Origin: Cystobacter ferrugineus
GTDB lineage: Bacteria; Myxococcota; Myxococcia; Myxococcales; Myxococcaceae
Direction: 5' to 3'
Length of the DNA stretch: 64,000 nt
NCBI RefSeq assembly: GCF_001887355.1
Contig: NZ_MPIN01000002.1
Coordinates: forward strand, 682,001-746,000
The translations under genes and the position numbers were made by a program. Of this stretch, positions 37,876 to 41,545 are shown piece by piece (within the stretch, counting starts at the first letter, position 1; each line of letters begins with the position of its first letter). The notes below the pieces were generated by a model. The model saw only the letters and a program-made list of their open reading frames with translations, had not been told where the DNA came from and ran no database searches.

Positions 37876-38109
37876 TCACTCCTCCTTCGCCCGGGGCATG
37901 TGCCGCCCCACGAGCCGGGAGAGCAGGACCTGGAACGCGTCGGGACTGATGTCCAACTGCTCGACGACGTGTCCGTAGAGCTGCGCGGTGGGCACGGCGC
38001 GCCCGGGACGCTCCTGCTCGAGCCGGTGCAGGGTGTGCAGGATGATGCGCTCGGCCCGGGTGAGGCCGTCTCGCACGTCGGGGAGATGATCGAAGGGGTG
38101 GCCGGACAT
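37876..38109 (-). CDS. Small conserved-type helical protein upstream of SUI1-like gene
   Basis: A 77-residue cytosolic protein. Three helices are visible: LTRAERIILHTLHRLEQE (about 16-33), TAQLYGHVVEQLD (about 41-53) and DAFQVLLSRLVGRH (about 57-70). The helix-turn-helix-like spacing (PTAQLYGHVVE ... SPDAFQVLLSRL) resembles a compact winged-helix fold, so nucleic-acid binding is possible. It has no recognised family and probably shares a transcript with the SUI1-like gene. Confidence 0.6.
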   Translation of the reverse strand: MSGHPFDHLPDVRDGLTRAERIILHTLHRLEQERPGRAVPTAQLYGHVVEQLDISPDAFQVLLSRLVGRHMPRAKEE

Positions 38110-38244
38110 GGGCGCCCGGCAGCCTATTCCAGCGGGCCGGGTGCCCGCCCGCCCTCCGGGCCGGATTGACAGCTCCTCCGCTCAAACGGATATTGCGCGC
38201 GTCCGCTCCTGCGGACATGATTCCGTTATCGGAGACACCCCCTC

Positions 38245-38382
38245 ATGAATCAGGCCGCCGAAGTCATCAACCTCGAAGAGTTCCGGAAGCGGCGCGAGCC
38301 CAGGGCCTCGTCGGCCTGGACACACATGCCCATGCACCGCTGGACGCCGGTGTGGGTGTGGGTCATGGTCTGGCCGACGTGA
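38245..38382 (+). CDS. 45-residue coupled small ORF upstream of XRE-cupin regulator
   Basis: ATG 38245, with GGAG nine bases upstream, opens a 45-residue frame: MNQAAEVINLEEFRKRREPR, then a Trp/Val/Met-rich end (MHRWTPVWVWVMVW). INLEEFRKRRE is a good amphipathic charged helix. Its TGA overlaps the GTG of the regulator gene as GTGA, so ribosomes finishing this ORF would restart on the regulator. It could be a leader peptide or a small regulatory protein with a hydrophobic, aromatic tail. No family recognised. Confidence 0.6.
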   Translation: MNQAAEVINLEEFRKRREPRASSAWTHMPMHRWTPVWVWVMVWPT

Positions 38383-39110
38383 AATCGGTTCGAGAAAACA
38401 CCCCTCCCTCGTCGGAGGAAGCCGAAGCCGCTCCGGCCAAGGGCCGGAAGCGGGAGTCGAGCGCGAAGAAGGTGGCGCCGCCCGTGGCCGATGCCCCCAC
38501 CTCCGAGGAGGAGTGGGCCTACGAGGTCGCTCACGCGGAGGCGTCCACGGATCTGGCGCCCATCGTCGGACGCAACCTGCGCAGGCTGCGCACCCAGCGG
38601 GGCCTGTCCCTGGAGCGGCTCGCCAAGGCGTCGGGCGTGAGCCGGGCGATGCTGGGGCAGATTGAACTGGGACAGAGCGCGCCCACCATCAACGTCATCT
38701 GGAAGATCGCCCGGGCGTTGGGCATCCCGTTCTCGGCGCTGATCAGCACCACGGCGCAGACGGGCACCCGCCTGATGCGCTCCCAGCAGTCCAAGCGGCT
38801 GTCCTCCCATGATGGGAAGTTCGTGTCGCGGGCGCTCTTTCCGTTCGACGAGCCCCGGCGCGTGGAGTTCTACGAGCTGCGGCTGGCCGCGCACGCGACG
38901 GAGGAGGCGGACGCCCACCCGCCCGGCACCATGGAGAACCTGGTGGTGACGTCGGGCACGGTGGAGATCGACCGGGGCGAGGAGCACCACGTGCTGAGCG
39001 CGGGAGACGCCATCCTGTTCGAGGCGGACGTGGCGCATGTCTACCGGAACACCAGTGACGTGGACGCGGTGATGTACCTGGTGATGACGTACGCGGAAAC
39101 GGTCGGCTGA
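38379..39110 (+). CDS. XRE-family regulator with C-terminal cupin
   Basis: A 243-residue regulator. Residues 1-55 are a disordered Lys/Glu/Ala-rich tail. 62-121 is a lambda-repressor-type HTH (LRRLRTQRGLSLERLAKASG, SRAMLGQIELGQSAPT). 155-240 is a cupin (HPPGTMENLVVTSGTVEI, GDAILFEADVAHVYRN), which usually binds a small ligand or metal. This two-domain layout is common in regulators of catabolic or stress genes (PuuR/SutR-like). GTG 38379 overlaps the small ORF stop (GTGA), so regulator output depends on translation of that ORF. The transcript ends at a strong hairpin at 39137. Confidence 0.88.
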   Translation: MKSVRENTPPSSEEAEAAPAKGRKRESSAKKVAPPVADAPTSEEEWAYEVAHAEASTDLAPIVGRNLRRLRTQRGLSLERLAKASGVSRAMLGQIELGQSAPTINVIWKIARALGIPFSALISTTAQTGTRLMRSQQSKRLSSHDGKFVSRALFPFDEPRRVEFYELRLAAHATEEADAHPPGTMENLVVTSGTVEIDRGEEHHVLSAGDAILFEADVAHVYRNTSDVDAVMYLVMTYAETVG

Positions 39111-39136
39111 GCGGGCCCCGTGTCCCCGAAAACGCC

Positions 39137-39176
39137 GAGAGCCGGCGCGGCCCCGTGGGGCGGCTCGCCGGCTCTC
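39137..39176. terminator. Strong hairpin between convergent XRE-cupin and Met-rich genes
   Basis: GAGAGCCGGCG (39137-39147) pairs perfectly with CGCCGGCTCTC (39166-39176), and the loop itself folds as CCCC-GTG-GGGG. For the leftward transcript the stem is followed by a short T-run (GCGTTTTCGG). It probably serves both genes. Confidence 0.7.
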
Positions 39177-39203
39177 GTGCTTCGTGCCCGATGGGGGCGC
39201 GGA

Positions 39204-39704
39204 CTACTTGGTGGAGCCCATCATGGTGCCCATCATCATGGGCATGCCGTTGCACATCATCATCATCGGCATCCCCATGGCCATCATGGAGTTCATCGCC
39301 TCGCAGCAGTCCTTCATCATGTCCATCTGCGACGGATCCATGGGCATCATCCGGCACATCATGCCGTCCTTGCCCATCTCCATCGTCATCCGGCACATCA
39401 TCGGCATGCGCATCATCATGGGCATCATCATCGGCATGCCGCCCATCATCGGGTTCATGCCCATCATCGGCATCTGATTCATGCCCATCATGGGCATCAT
39501 GCCGCCCATCATCGGGTTCATGCCCATCATGGGCATCATGCCGCCCATCATCGGGTTCATGCCGCCCATCATCGGGTTCATGCCGCCCATCATCGGCATG
39601 GGCATGGGCATCATTCCACCCATCATCGGGTTCATGCCGCCCATCATCGGGTTCATTCCAGGCTGCATGGGCATCGGCATGGGCATCTGAGAAGCAGGCG
39701 TCAT
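39204..39704 (-). CDS. Methionine-rich repeat protein (46% Met)
   Basis: A 166-residue protein with 77 methionines, 5 cysteines and no histidine. Residues 17-90 are tandem MNPMMGG and MMPMMG units; residues 90-166 are Met-rich but less regular, with MMCR twice, CC and MMMMCNG. No signal peptide is visible, so it is probably cytosolic. AGAGGA lies seven bases upstream of ATG 39704. Met/Cys-rich proteins of this kind bind soft metals such as Cu(I) or act as oxidant sinks; that is inference. The repeats also leave Ile/Pro-rich ORFs open on the plus strand, but those lack ribosome sites. Confidence 0.7.
   Translation of the reverse strand: MTPASQMPMPMPMQPGMNPMMGGMNPMMGGMMPMPMPMMGGMNPMMGGMNPMMGGMMPMMGMNPMMGGMMPMMGMNQMPMMGMNPMMGGMPMMMPMMMRMPMMCRMTMEMGKDGMMCRMMPMDPSQMDMMKDCCEAMNSMMAMGMPMMMMCNGMPMMMGTMMGSTK
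39437..39660. repeat. Tandem 21-bp coding repeats (MNPMMGG units)
   Basis: The unit GCCGCCCATCATCGGGTTCA, about 21 bp, occurs roughly seven times with small changes and some GGGCATCAT spacers. It encodes Asn-Pro-Met-Met-Gly-Gly-Met on the minus strand. Copies are nearly identical at the DNA level, suggesting recent expansion. Confidence 0.85.
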
Positions 39705-39925
39705 GGTGCGTCCTCTCGTGACTGTGACTGCATGTATGACTTCGACCCGGCTACGGTAGAGAGGGACGCCCCACGCGACAATCCACCCGGTTTTTTTTCC
39801 TCCAGTGAAACGGAGGAGTCGCTTTGGGCAGCGGATGCCGTGTGGGATTCAGTACGGCGAACCGGGATGTTCGTGCACCCCGGATCGCCCGGATGAAGGA
39901 GGCACACGGCCCGTCGCCTGGTGAT

Positions 39926-41545
39926 CTATCGGCACTGGGGCTGCTCGGAGGCTCCGGTGCTGGAGGCGACGAGCCGCAGGAACTCGTCCGGCGGGGGCTC
40001 CGAGCCGTTCTCCCAGAGCGAGGCTTCCGCCCAGCACTGCACCCAGTCGGTGCTCCAGTTGGCGGGCAGGGCGTTGCACGCGGAGCGGCGCGCGGCACCT
40101 CGCACCCGGGCGTCGTGCTGCACCGCCGCGAACACGTGCGGAGCGAGTCGATCCAGGAAGGCGTCGGAGAAGGCGTGGGGAGGCGGCATGTTGAGCGGAT
40201 CCGCCGAGATGCCAGCGGGCCCGAAGCCCACGTGCTCCGCGTCCGAGAAGCGCAGCACTCCGGCATCCTGCACCGGCGGCGCGCCCCCCGGGGTGTTCGC
40301 GCGCAGGGTGAACTGGTAGGGCGAGCTCCAGTCGTGCGTCAGCACGGAGTAGGTGAAGGTGTCGTAGACGTCCTCGGTCACGGTCTCGGAGAGTCCGTCC
40401 AGTGCCCGGCCCGCATCCTCTCGCGCCGCCACCTTCTGCTTGCGCTCCTCGTCGAGCTTGCGCGCCTCGTCACAGGCGGGAGTGCTCGCGGGGGGCGTGT
40501 CCGGGCAACCCACGCACGTCGCATCGTGTGCCGGCGGGTTCTTCTTGCACTCCTTGTCCTTCTCCTCGAAGGCCCGCTCGGCCCTCCGCAGCTCGCGCTC
40601 GGCGTCTCCCAGCCGATCGCGGGCCCGCTCGAACCTGGGGTTGGGCACCTGGCGCGTGCCGCTCACATAGCGCACGTGGTTCACGTCCTCGGTGATGTTC
40701 TCCACCACGCGCTGCACGAGCGCGTCCACCTGGAGGACGAGGGGCGAGGGCTGACCGGGCACGTTTCCGTTCTCGGCGCACCGGCTCCCACGGGGAAGGC
40801 CCGAGGCCAGGCTGGAGCACGGGGCGGACAGGCCCTGGGCGATGGGACGGTAGATGGGGCCATCGAGCTGGGTGACGACGGGGATGCTGCTCTGGGCGAA
40901 GAAGTCCTGCTGGGCGCGCTGGAGCTCGGCGCCCGTGTTGCCCGAGGGGGCCAGGCACTGCGCCGTCGTCCACAGCACGGCGGCGGCGCCTTGCGTTCCC
41001 CGGGAGCTCGCGGTGGTCGCGAGCGTCGCGAAGCGCGCGGAGAGCTGGCTCGCGCGCGAGGCGAGGAGATCCTGGTAGGCGCTCACGGGAAGCTGGTGTC
41101 CCCGGGCCTGGAGGCACGCGAAGCCCGCGACCTCCGAGCCCACCGAGCCGTCCTCCCTCCACTGGTTGGCGCAGCGCTCGGTGTGCAACCGGCTCGCACT
41201 CTCGAGCATCGCGTTGACCTCGACGTGCTCGGGCAGCAGATCCCGCGCGTCGAGCAGCGGCGGCAGGCAGCGATCCAGGTCGCCCGTGTCACATCCCGGC
41301 CGGGCGGTGGTGATGGCCTGATCCGTGGCCTTGACGGAGAAGAGGGGGACACGGCCGCACGCATCCTCGTCATCGGGCGCGGCGCGGCAGGCGTCACGGT
41401 AGGAGCGTGCCGCGGTCAGGAAGTCGCCACGGATCGCCGCTTCCCGGGCGCGGTTGAAGGCTTCCCGATAAGCGCTGTTACAGCCTCCCAGTAGAAGGAG
41501 GGCGAGAGCCGAGGTGAGTCGTAGAGGGGAAGAGGGGGTGTTCAT
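39926..41545 (-). CDS. Large hypothetical lipoprotein
   Basis: A 539-residue protein with a lipobox LALLLLGGC (Cys22). The N-terminal 100 residues look like helical repeats (AFNRAREAAIRGDFLTAARSYRDACRAAPDD, TPR-like). A long charged coiled-coil region lies at about 310-390 (RFERARDRLGDAERELRRAERAFEEKDKECKK). About 15 cysteines are spread through the protein, so disulfides are likely in the envelope. The C-terminal third is beta-rich. No named family recognised. The 190-bp region upstream of the start (41546-41738) separates it from the divergent GNAT gene. Confidence 0.7.
   Translation of the reverse strand: MNTPSSPLRLTSALALLLLGGCNSAYREAFNRAREAAIRGDFLTAARSYRDACRAAPDDEDACGRVPLFSVKATDQAITTARPGCDTGDLDRCLPPLLDARDLLPEHVEVNAMLESASRLHTERCANQWREDGSVGSEVAGFACLQARGHQLPVSAYQDLLASRASQLSARFATLATTASSRGTQGAAAVLWTTAQCLAPSGNTGAELQRAQQDFFAQSSIPVVTQLDGPIYRPIAQGLSAPCSSLASGLPRGSRCAENGNVPGQPSPLVLQVDALVQRVVENITEDVNHVRYVSGTRQVPNPRFERARDRLGDAERELRRAERAFEEKDKECKKNPPAHDATCVGCPDTPPASTPACDEARKLDEERKQKVAAREDAGRALDGLSETVTEDVYDTFTYSVLTHDWSSPYQFTLRANTPGGAPPVQDAGVLRFSDAEHVGFGPAGISADPLNMPPPHAFSDAFLDRLAPHVFAAVQHDARVRGAARRSACNALPANWSTDWVQCWAEASLWENGSEPPPDEFLRLVASSTGASEQPQCR

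Follow-up and report, generated by a model that had tools for sequence, protein, structure and literature searches.

A methionine-rich protein with a conserved C-terminal domain and its XRE-cupin partner in Myxococcota and Pseudomonadota

What could a bacterial protein be for in which nearly every second residue is methionine? The question is raised by a reverse-strand frame in Cystobacter ferrugineus, in a stretch of 64,000 nucleotides (contig NZ_MPIN01000002.1, positions 682,001 to 746,000) that we call the window and whose numbering is used throughout. A first-pass annotation made from the letters of this DNA had described a cytosolic-looking protein, a candidate Cu(I)/Ag(I) sponge or oxidant buffer, encoded convergently to an XRE-cupin regulator. 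At about 46% Met the protein is an outlier. Rather than being the oddity of one genome, it has a conserved domain and is accompanied, in two phyla, by a recurring regulator and a very small third gene. The features of the locus are collected in Table 1.

Table 1. Features of the locus, in window coordinates.
Feature	Position	Strand	Basis or remark
Promoter-like TTGACA-N17-GATATT of the small ORF / XRE-cupin unit	38166..38194	+	Sequence pattern
Two palindromic operators TCCGN6CGGA	38177..38215	+	First fills the -35 to -10 spacer; no second tandem of this kind found in the genome
Conserved small ORF, 45 aa, VINLEEFRKRR...PVWVWVMVWPT	38245..38382	+	Stop codon overlaps the XRE start codon
XRE-cupin regulator, SutR / 1Y9Q-like, 243 aa	38379..39110	+	Likely GTG start at 38379; end 93 bp from the stop codon of the Met-rich gene
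GC-rich hairpin between the convergent genes	39136..39177	.	Possible shared terminator
Met-rich protein gene, 166 aa, 46% Met	39204..39704	-	ATG at 39704, stop at 39206-39204
Conserved C-terminal domain, residues 102-166, Met/Cys-rich, predicted beta-beta-alpha-beta-beta	39207..39401	-	Alignments, AF2, column counts
Variable Met-rich low-complexity region, MNPMMGG / MMPMMG repeats, 21-bp DNA units	39402..39686	-	Translation and repeat searches; length differs between relatives
Operator-like array TCCG-N17-TCCG-N7-GGAGGAAA	39796..39835	-	About 90-130 bp before the ATG of the Met-rich gene; alignment

The methionine-rich gene and its C-terminal domain

Translation of the frame gave 77 Met among 166 residues, 5 Cys and 0 His, the composition that the first-pass annotation had reported, and showed that Trp, Phe, Tyr, Ile and Leu are lacking. 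The tandem 21-bp units it had described were recovered by TRF at 39435-39596 (period 21, 7.9 copies, 76% matches), and a search for direct repeats in the gene found 11 overlapping 75-nt copies, separated by 21 nt in 8 of the 10 steps. As had been stated, no signal peptide was recognizable by eye at the N-terminus; nor was an export signal seen by eye in the 33 sequences of the first set of homologs or in 37 sequences from a Pseudomonas-like family of Pseudomonadota. The earlier distinction from secreted Met-rich copper domains is supported, and the protein is genuine and probably cytosolic. The gene is present as a single copy in its own genome, where two further matches reached only E 0.3 and 1.2. 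The window protein matched 0 Pfam and 0 NCBIfam families at E≤1, and two Pseudomonas-family homologs matched 0 Pfam families at the same threshold; this covers the Csp and metallothionein profiles in Pfam and, for the window protein, the MXKDX model that we take NCBIfam to include. One MGKDG pentapeptide lies within its C-terminal domain. A PDB sequence search returned a single chance-level match, an aryl alcohol oxidase (E 0.2). Plasmid records gave no match by tblastn with the window protein or a Pseudomonas-family homolog, in searches whose low-complexity filter may mask Met-rich sequence. Nothing on the protein or its module was found among the titles and abstract openings listed from the open-access literature, a body that leaves subscription journals mostly outside.

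The frame is a real gene. The same frame, with its C-terminal domain and a Met content of 38-50%, recurs in 32 Myxococcota sequences, and the domain recurs in Pseudomonadota, a repetition that amounts to more than chance. Loss of the frame in close relatives, named beforehand as evidence against it, was not seen, and the three other genomes of the genus keep it at 89-94% identity. With L007 set aside, non-Met codons have a GC3 of 0.928, and codon position 3 changes most often in three of the four genus groups tested, the exception being the Myxococcus/Pyxidicoccus group with 107, 48 and 74 changes at positions 1, 2 and 3. Openness of the frame alone proves little, because one complementary antisense frame is likewise open in 33 of 33 copies. 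That antisense frame, together with another, Ser-rich ORF on the plus strand, is what could be said for a repeat that is non-coding or read in another frame. Given that the domain profile matches in the Met-rich frame across two phyla, and given the GC3 value and the third-position bias, we regard a chance or misread frame as extremely improbable.

As judged from the alignments, the protein is more than a mere repeat protein and consists of a conserved C-terminal domain preceded by a variable Met-rich front. The 32 Myxococcota forms have 117-176 residues (the lengths of L033 and L037 may include a false upstream start), 38-50% Met and 3-7 Cys, with a front of variable length and one C-terminal domain. 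The 37 Pseudomonas-family forms have 159-174 residues, 37-44% Met and 13-17 Cys, and most of them are two-domain proteins with a short Met-rich front and a linker (111 domain copies were counted in 73 proteins), L173 and L174 having one domain each. Although the median Cys content differs threefold between the two phyla, Met and Cys together make up about half of all residues in both, with medians of 0.49 and 0.51. Each protein has 0-1 His and few aromatic residues, and the number of Cys ranges from 3 to 17. One locus of the Massilia family (L078, G430) has its two domains split between short open frames of 102 and 52 residues, as if by an interruption of the frame.

Column counts over 103 distinct domain copies showed that Pro20 and Pro45 are invariant and that nine columns are at least 92% Met, with rare Leu, Ile or Val. 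Cys exchanges mainly with Met in six columns (column 7, C92 M9; 16, C101 M2; 42, C65 M32; 50, C97 M3; 57, C60 M30; 58, C50 M32) and with Ala, Val or Ser in three (3, C46 A44 V10; 32, C61 S25; 33, C71 A31). Ordinary hydrophobic columns are also present (29, F48 M39 L13; 35, L35 M34 A30). AF2, run with 36 sequences, predicted strands at 15-22 and 25-32, a helix at 35-53 and strands at 58-62 and 65-70, with moderate confidence (mean pLDDT 68, 72-83 over residues 11-60; pTM 0.47). In the model of the Massilia tandem protein, nearly the same beta-beta-alpha-beta-beta element appears twice (pLDDT 62, pTM 0.52). In the first hairpin (5-7-9, 14-16-18) the columns between the sulfur positions are mostly polar, and the alternation is less clean in the second (46-48-50 and 53-55-57, with Met also at 47 and 56). 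From this alternation on the predicted strands we infer that the inner face of the domain is lined with sulfur. Foldseek found nothing at E≤0.001 for either model, the best values being 1.3 for the single domain and 0.021 for the Massilia tandem; a fold comparison gave one VIA row at Z 2.8. Such a lack of matches does not show a new fold.

The profile of the C-terminal domain matched 28 of the 96 genomes of the window's family. We counted G008 as a further carrier (29 of 96) despite the lack of a match in this search: only the 3' end of its Met-rich gene is present, running into the contig end, and a transposase-like gene is inserted at the XRE-cupin stop codon (L133), between the XRE-cupin and Met-rich genes. 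Across the 195 genomes of the phylum that were searched, those 96 included, there were 30 matches, two of them outside the family. A contig scan added MAGs with the Met-rich gene, one of them named Massilia, and in the family of this MAG 3 of 294 genomes match, the MAG itself included. A spread of 398 Pseudomonadota genomes gave nine listed matches, of which eight stand, because that in G726 (E 6e-4) was judged false, its ORF resembling a trimethylamine methyltransferase by eye. In the Pseudomonas-like family the gene is carried by 37 of 298 genomes.

The XRE-cupin regulator and the small ORF

The convergent neighbor is an XRE-cupin, as had been noted, with an HTH_3 domain at 61 bits (cut-off 23) and a Cupin_2 domain at 48.5 bits (cut-off 27.2). 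In a direct comparison limited to two regulators, it is 36% identical to E. coli SutR (E 4e-41) and 26% identical to PuuR (E 7e-10). The closest solved structure is 1Y9Q (E 2.7e-23), and for SutR the closest are 6B8W and 1Y9Q. Cupins often use H...E...H residues for a metal; these residues are kept in the alignments of the regulator to 1Y9Q and SutR, which leaves room for a metal or metal-methionine signal. An excerpt of PMC7901475 places D-methionine in the cupin pocket of 1Y9Q, and a passage of PMC11332829, citing Yamamoto 2015, gives SutR a regulatory role in sulfur utilization.

The XRE-cupin is the usual partner of the Met-rich gene across two phyla. It is the next gene in 19 of the 28 mapped loci of the first set, lying a few genes off in one more, and in 18 of the 24 mapped Pseudomonadota loci; the other neighbors change in both, between genera in the first set. 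These gene maps take in 28 of 30 and 24 of 39 loci, respectively, the Met-rich gene being missed elsewhere by the simple gene caller. In 25 of the 29 carriers of the window's family, no more than 400 bp separate the XRE-cupin from the Met-rich gene; in the remaining ones the regulator is about 5 kb away (G005, L021), separated by the insertion described above (G008), or on another contig (G089, G094). It also adjoins the Met-rich gene in L173, L174 and Anaeromyxobacter oryzae (L012, L045). Among the 37 carriers of the Pseudomonas-like family, 31 have a convergent XRE-cupin at a distance of no more than 900 bp and two have it 2.1 and 4.7 kb away; it is absent from the fetched stretch of about 6 kb in three, and untestable in one. 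At E≤1e-8, a search near the Met-rich gene found no XRE-cupin in L007, L077 and L078 of the Massilia family or in L079, L011 (contig end), L013, L074 and L075, and none stands beside it in two g26 genomes. Loci without a nearby XRE-cupin stay in every count (6 of 37 in the Pseudomonas-like family and 9 of 16 in the further set).

Co-occurrence was counted over whole genomes. In the window's family, an XRE-cupin at E≤1e-45 is present in 44 of 96 genomes, that is, in 29 of 29 carriers and 15 of 67 non-carriers. The 15 non-carrier copies are more distant (best E 2.2e-88), like those of the carriers G016, G089 and G094, while the other 26 carriers have an XRE-cupin at E 1.6e-94 or better. Seven of the 27 genomes of genus g19 have the Met-rich gene, and those same seven have the XRE-cupin. 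At E≤1e-60, the Pseudomonas-like family has the XRE-cupin in 36 of 37 carriers (G1049 is the carrier without it) versus 0 of 261 non-carriers; both Pseudomonas-like counts come from the same 298 genomes, as far as the listed handles show. Fisher tests gave p values of 7e-14 for the window's family and 1e-45 for the Pseudomonas-like family, with genomes treated as independent, which they are not. The two genes lie about 9 kb apart in G964 and on different contigs in G638 and G936, which argues that the association is not just one of neighborhood.

Two side observations concern individual loci. G016 has two XRE-cupin paralogs (L142, L143), and only the more distant one (57%) adjoins the Met-rich gene, together with a small ORF and an operator. 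In L171 the gap between the XRE-cupin and the Met-rich gene contains a REP-like repeat of the GTGGGAGCGAGCCTGCTCGCGATGG type, which we take to be typical of Pseudomonas.

All 26 aligned Myxococcota loci have an ORF whose end overlaps the start codon of the XRE-cupin. Read from ATG it has 43-46 residues and reads approximately VI(D/N)L..FRK.R...PVWVWV; for 14 of these loci the script had picked an earlier start codon. The 57%-identical XRE-cupin of G016 and the regulators in L012, L173 and L174 also follow a related ORF, as seen by eye from the translations. The part common to the small ORFs is a short V-I-D-L/F-xxx-R motif, and a regular expression containing it found the ORF in 30 of the 33 Pseudomonas-family loci with an XRE-cupin. 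The only Pfam match of the small ORF was to DUF4169 (E 0.017), below the cut-off of that family. A small ORF of about 45 residues, an XRE-cupin and a convergent Met-rich gene form a three-gene module whose members are mostly together or co-occurring across Myxococcota and Pseudomonadota.

Operators, promoters and the intergenic hairpin

Upstream of the small ORF, 26 XRE loci have TTGAC(A/G), TCCG-N6-[CT]GGA sites and, in most cases, a -10-like element. None of the 26 aligned XRE promoters lacks a TCCG-N6-[CT]GGA site, and 21 contain two or more. The spacer between the -35 and -10 elements, where the first operator of the window lies, is a classical position for a repressor. Of 13 loci whose XRE-cupin copy does not adjoin a Met-rich gene, 5 show one or two such sites in the 330 bp upstream of the match and 8 show none. 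Ten of these loci come from the 15 non-carrier genomes that have an XRE-cupin, with two sites in L135, one each in L141 and L144, and none in seven; the others are the unlinked copies of carriers, with one site each in G094 (L137) and G089 (L147) and none in G016 (L142). The G016 copy that is linked to the Met-rich gene (L143) has one operator site.

On the other side of the locus, TCCG units at steps of about 21 bp, ending in GGAGGAAA, precede the Met-rich gene in most Myxococcota loci. A matrix was built from 20 distinct XRE-promoter sites and run on the 260 bp before the Met-rich gene, against 200 dinucleotide shuffles. It gave p≤0.05 upstream of 29 of 33 Met-rich genes, with the reservation that related loci are not independent tests; the exceptions were the window itself (L001, three best sites, 0.060), L015 (0.090), L034 (0.622) and the Massilia locus L007 (0.806). 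By these comparisons, the XRE-cupin promoter and the DNA upstream of the Met-rich gene have a TCCG-N6-CGGA operator in common, in Myxococcota only. Since both carry it there, the XRE-cupin probably controls both itself and the Met-rich gene.

The possibility that sites like the upstream array define a genome-wide regulon was considered and rejected: the tandem XRE operator occurs once in the 12-Mb genome, and the array pattern has one exact match, which is the window's own source. With up to two mismatches there were 23 matches, own source included, versus 9 for a reversed control. A known RNA family behind the upstream conservation was likewise dropped, Rfam scores over 38000-41000 being nowhere near the gathering scores. 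The Myxococcota stretch from GGAGGAAA to the ATG (about 39705-39795 in the window) is translatable from a GGAGG and gives similar peptides in some loci, with no constant frame; because the frame is not kept, it is no more than a candidate for a leader peptide.

In the Pseudomonas-like family, no operator common to both promoters was seen by eye. Sixteen aligned loci (within L169-L228) show a conserved GAATATCCAT-n-GCGTC-like element about 200 bp before the Met-rich gene and a TTG..-N17-TAGAAT-like promoter near it. Upstream of their XRE-cupin lies a different, AT-rich conserved block.

The strong hairpin that had been noted between the convergent genes was found again, with 19-nt arms that are 84% complementary and folding energies of -41.6 and -40.1 kcal/mol on the two strands (z -3.45 and -2.91). 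Beyond the Met-rich gene, the next gene upstream (39926-41545, reverse strand) has no Pfam match and a weak similarity to TraC (E 1.1e-12, 47.4 bits versus a cut-off of 500). TraC is an accessory lipoprotein of outer-membrane exchange.

Candidate functions of the module

We propose that the three genes make up a compact, self-contained module in which the Met-rich gene would be the effector. The small ORF and the XRE-cupin would form one transcription unit, and the XRE-cupin would repress itself and control the Met-rich gene, either by repression or by activation. The Met-rich protein would consist of one or two small beta-beta-alpha-beta-beta domains with Met and Cys on the inner face, behind a flexible Met-rich stretch. 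In the mechanism that we prefer, with a probability of roughly 0.4, the protein would be a cytosolic sink for soft metals, with Cu(I) or Ag(I) ions held by the Cys/Met core and many additional weak thioether sites supplied by the Met-rich arm. We prefer it because most Cys positions exchange with Met and not with other hydrophobic residues, and because His is nearly absent; a scarcity of His and aromatic residues fits the ligation of the soft ions Cu(I) and Ag(I). Against a metal sink, the module has no link to a copper gene or to a known copper sensor, and we know of no SutR-like regulator that acts as a copper sensor. The exchanges with Ala, Val or Ser at Cys columns 3, 32 and 33 and the wide range in Cys number would also argue against it. 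The module model itself has against it the p value of 0.060 for the window's array and the 15 non-carriers that hold an XRE-cupin without the Met-rich gene.

The extreme Met content would also suit a protein whose Met residues are sacrificed to oxidation when hypochlorite or peroxide is present and are then reduced again by methionine sulfoxide reductases of the cytosol, as a cytosolic counterpart of MrpX/BcrX. An excerpt of PMC8315932 describes the Met-rich peptides BcrX/MrpX with MsrQP in such a role, and the nine nearly pure Met columns, with their rare Leu, Ile or Val, are as expected for a residue that must be hydrophobic but oxidizable. We nevertheless consider such a buffer somewhat unlikely, as only the XRE-cupin and the small ORF are kept as neighbors (neighbors not being annotated singly), no msr linkage of the MrpX type was seen, no NCBIfam model matched, and the swapping of Cys and Met at six fixed columns suggests ligands, not bulk thioether. 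A third reading, absent from the first-pass annotation, is raised by the kinship of the regulator to SutR and 1Y9Q and concerns sulfur-amino-acid homeostasis: the XRE-cupin would sense methionine or another sulfur metabolite and release synthesis of a protein that is later degraded for its Met and Cys. Among the rivals, this is the one that the relatives of the regulator would favor, namely SutR, to which it is closer than to PuuR and which has its role in sulfur utilization (PMC11332829, in a passage citing Yamamoto 2015), and 1Y9Q, its best structure, with D-methionine (PMC7901475, in excerpt). A constant Met plus Cys fraction in both phyla, despite the threefold difference in Cys, speaks for it as well. 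However, a store requires composition only, yet many positions are fixed, including the nine Met columns and the two Pro residues; the methionine in 1Y9Q may stem from its preparation, and no sulfur metabolism gene was seen among the kept neighbors. We consider a reservoir unlikely, although it is, like the oxidant buffer, a serious rival to the metal sink.

It seems more improbable still that the protein is a scaffold or redox-sensing condensate, in which the Met-rich front would self-associate and dissolve on oxidation as in yeast ataxin-2, with the domain as an anchor. The front is indeed of low complexity (Met, Gly, Pro and Asn), and part of PMC11132505, citing Kato 2019 and Yang 2019, links Met-rich low-complexity domains of yeast to redox sensing. 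However, most Pseudomonas-family copies are two-domain proteins with a short front and a linker, so that a long low-complexity arm is not the constant feature, and no partner protein is known. Yeast ataxin-2, reportedly the subject of Kato 2019, would be a distant analog of the front.

The company of the same regulator gene and small ORF in two distant bacterial groups suggests an undescribed intracellular handling of sulfur-loving metals, oxidants or sulfur amino acids. In a wider and rather doubtful reading, the cytosolic protein made by the three-gene module of the two phyla would have a folded core in which Met and Cys replace ordinary hydrophobic residues, an XRE-cupin that senses methionine or metal-methionine would switch the protein on, the small ORF would be a co-regulator of the XRE-cupin, and one protein would link soft-metal, redox and sulfur-amino-acid homeostasis. 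The outcome could be a new store for soft metals, an oxidant buffer of the cytosol that is based on methionine, or a regulated reservoir of sulfur amino acids in bacteria, of which last we know of no example. How far Met and Cys can build a hydrophobic core is a protein-folding question that the domain raises in any case, and the conserved module in the carrier Pseudomonas-like strains, which should be convenient to handle, makes the function directly testable.

Comparison with known systems gives Csp3 and MrpX/BcrX as the closest analogs in function. Csp3 is described in an excerpt of PMC7558416 as a small cytosolic protein whose core of sulfur residues holds Cu(I), and the same excerpt lists the bacterial metallothioneins SmtA and MymT as small cytosolic sulfur-rich proteins for soft metals. 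The Met-rich protein resembles Csp3 in its size, its probable location and its predicted sulfur core, the holding of Cu(I) being known in Csp3 and proposed here. However, Csp is a Cys-lined four-helix bundle, whereas the domain here is a Met/Cys-rich beta-beta-alpha-beta-beta element, predicted by AF2 at moderate confidence. The likeness to the metallothioneins extends to small size, cytosolic location and sulfur content, with soft metals as their cargo, but Met far exceeds Cys in the protein studied here.

As to the oxidant-related peptides, BcrX is accompanied by an MsrQP-like system and by an ECF sigma factor, and MrpX is termed periplasmic in a title cited there (PMC8315932, in part). They share with the Met-rich protein a small size, a Met-rich composition, a regulator gene nearby and a possible role as a sacrificial oxidation sink; in contrast, the module here has no export signal by eye, no kept msr neighbor and an XRE-cupin as its regulator. 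Melnyk 2015 is a reference cited for MrpX/BcrX. Published XRE-cupins are mostly local repressors of neighboring genes that act at palindromic sites (PMC7901475 and PMC12565409, in excerpts), and those of the PsdR, ErfA and PauR type control a neighboring gene, with some autoregulation (PMC7901475, in excerpt). The regulator of the module resembles these local repressors, as well as SutR and 1Y9Q, in its HTH_3 and Cupin_2 domains and in the palindromic sites at its own promoter. It differs from them in its presumed target, a Met-rich protein that is neither enzyme nor transporter, and in the conserved small ORF that precedes it. In one Pseudomonas-like subclade, genes named by eye as TonB-receptor-like and ECF-sigma-like lie beyond the XRE-cupin.
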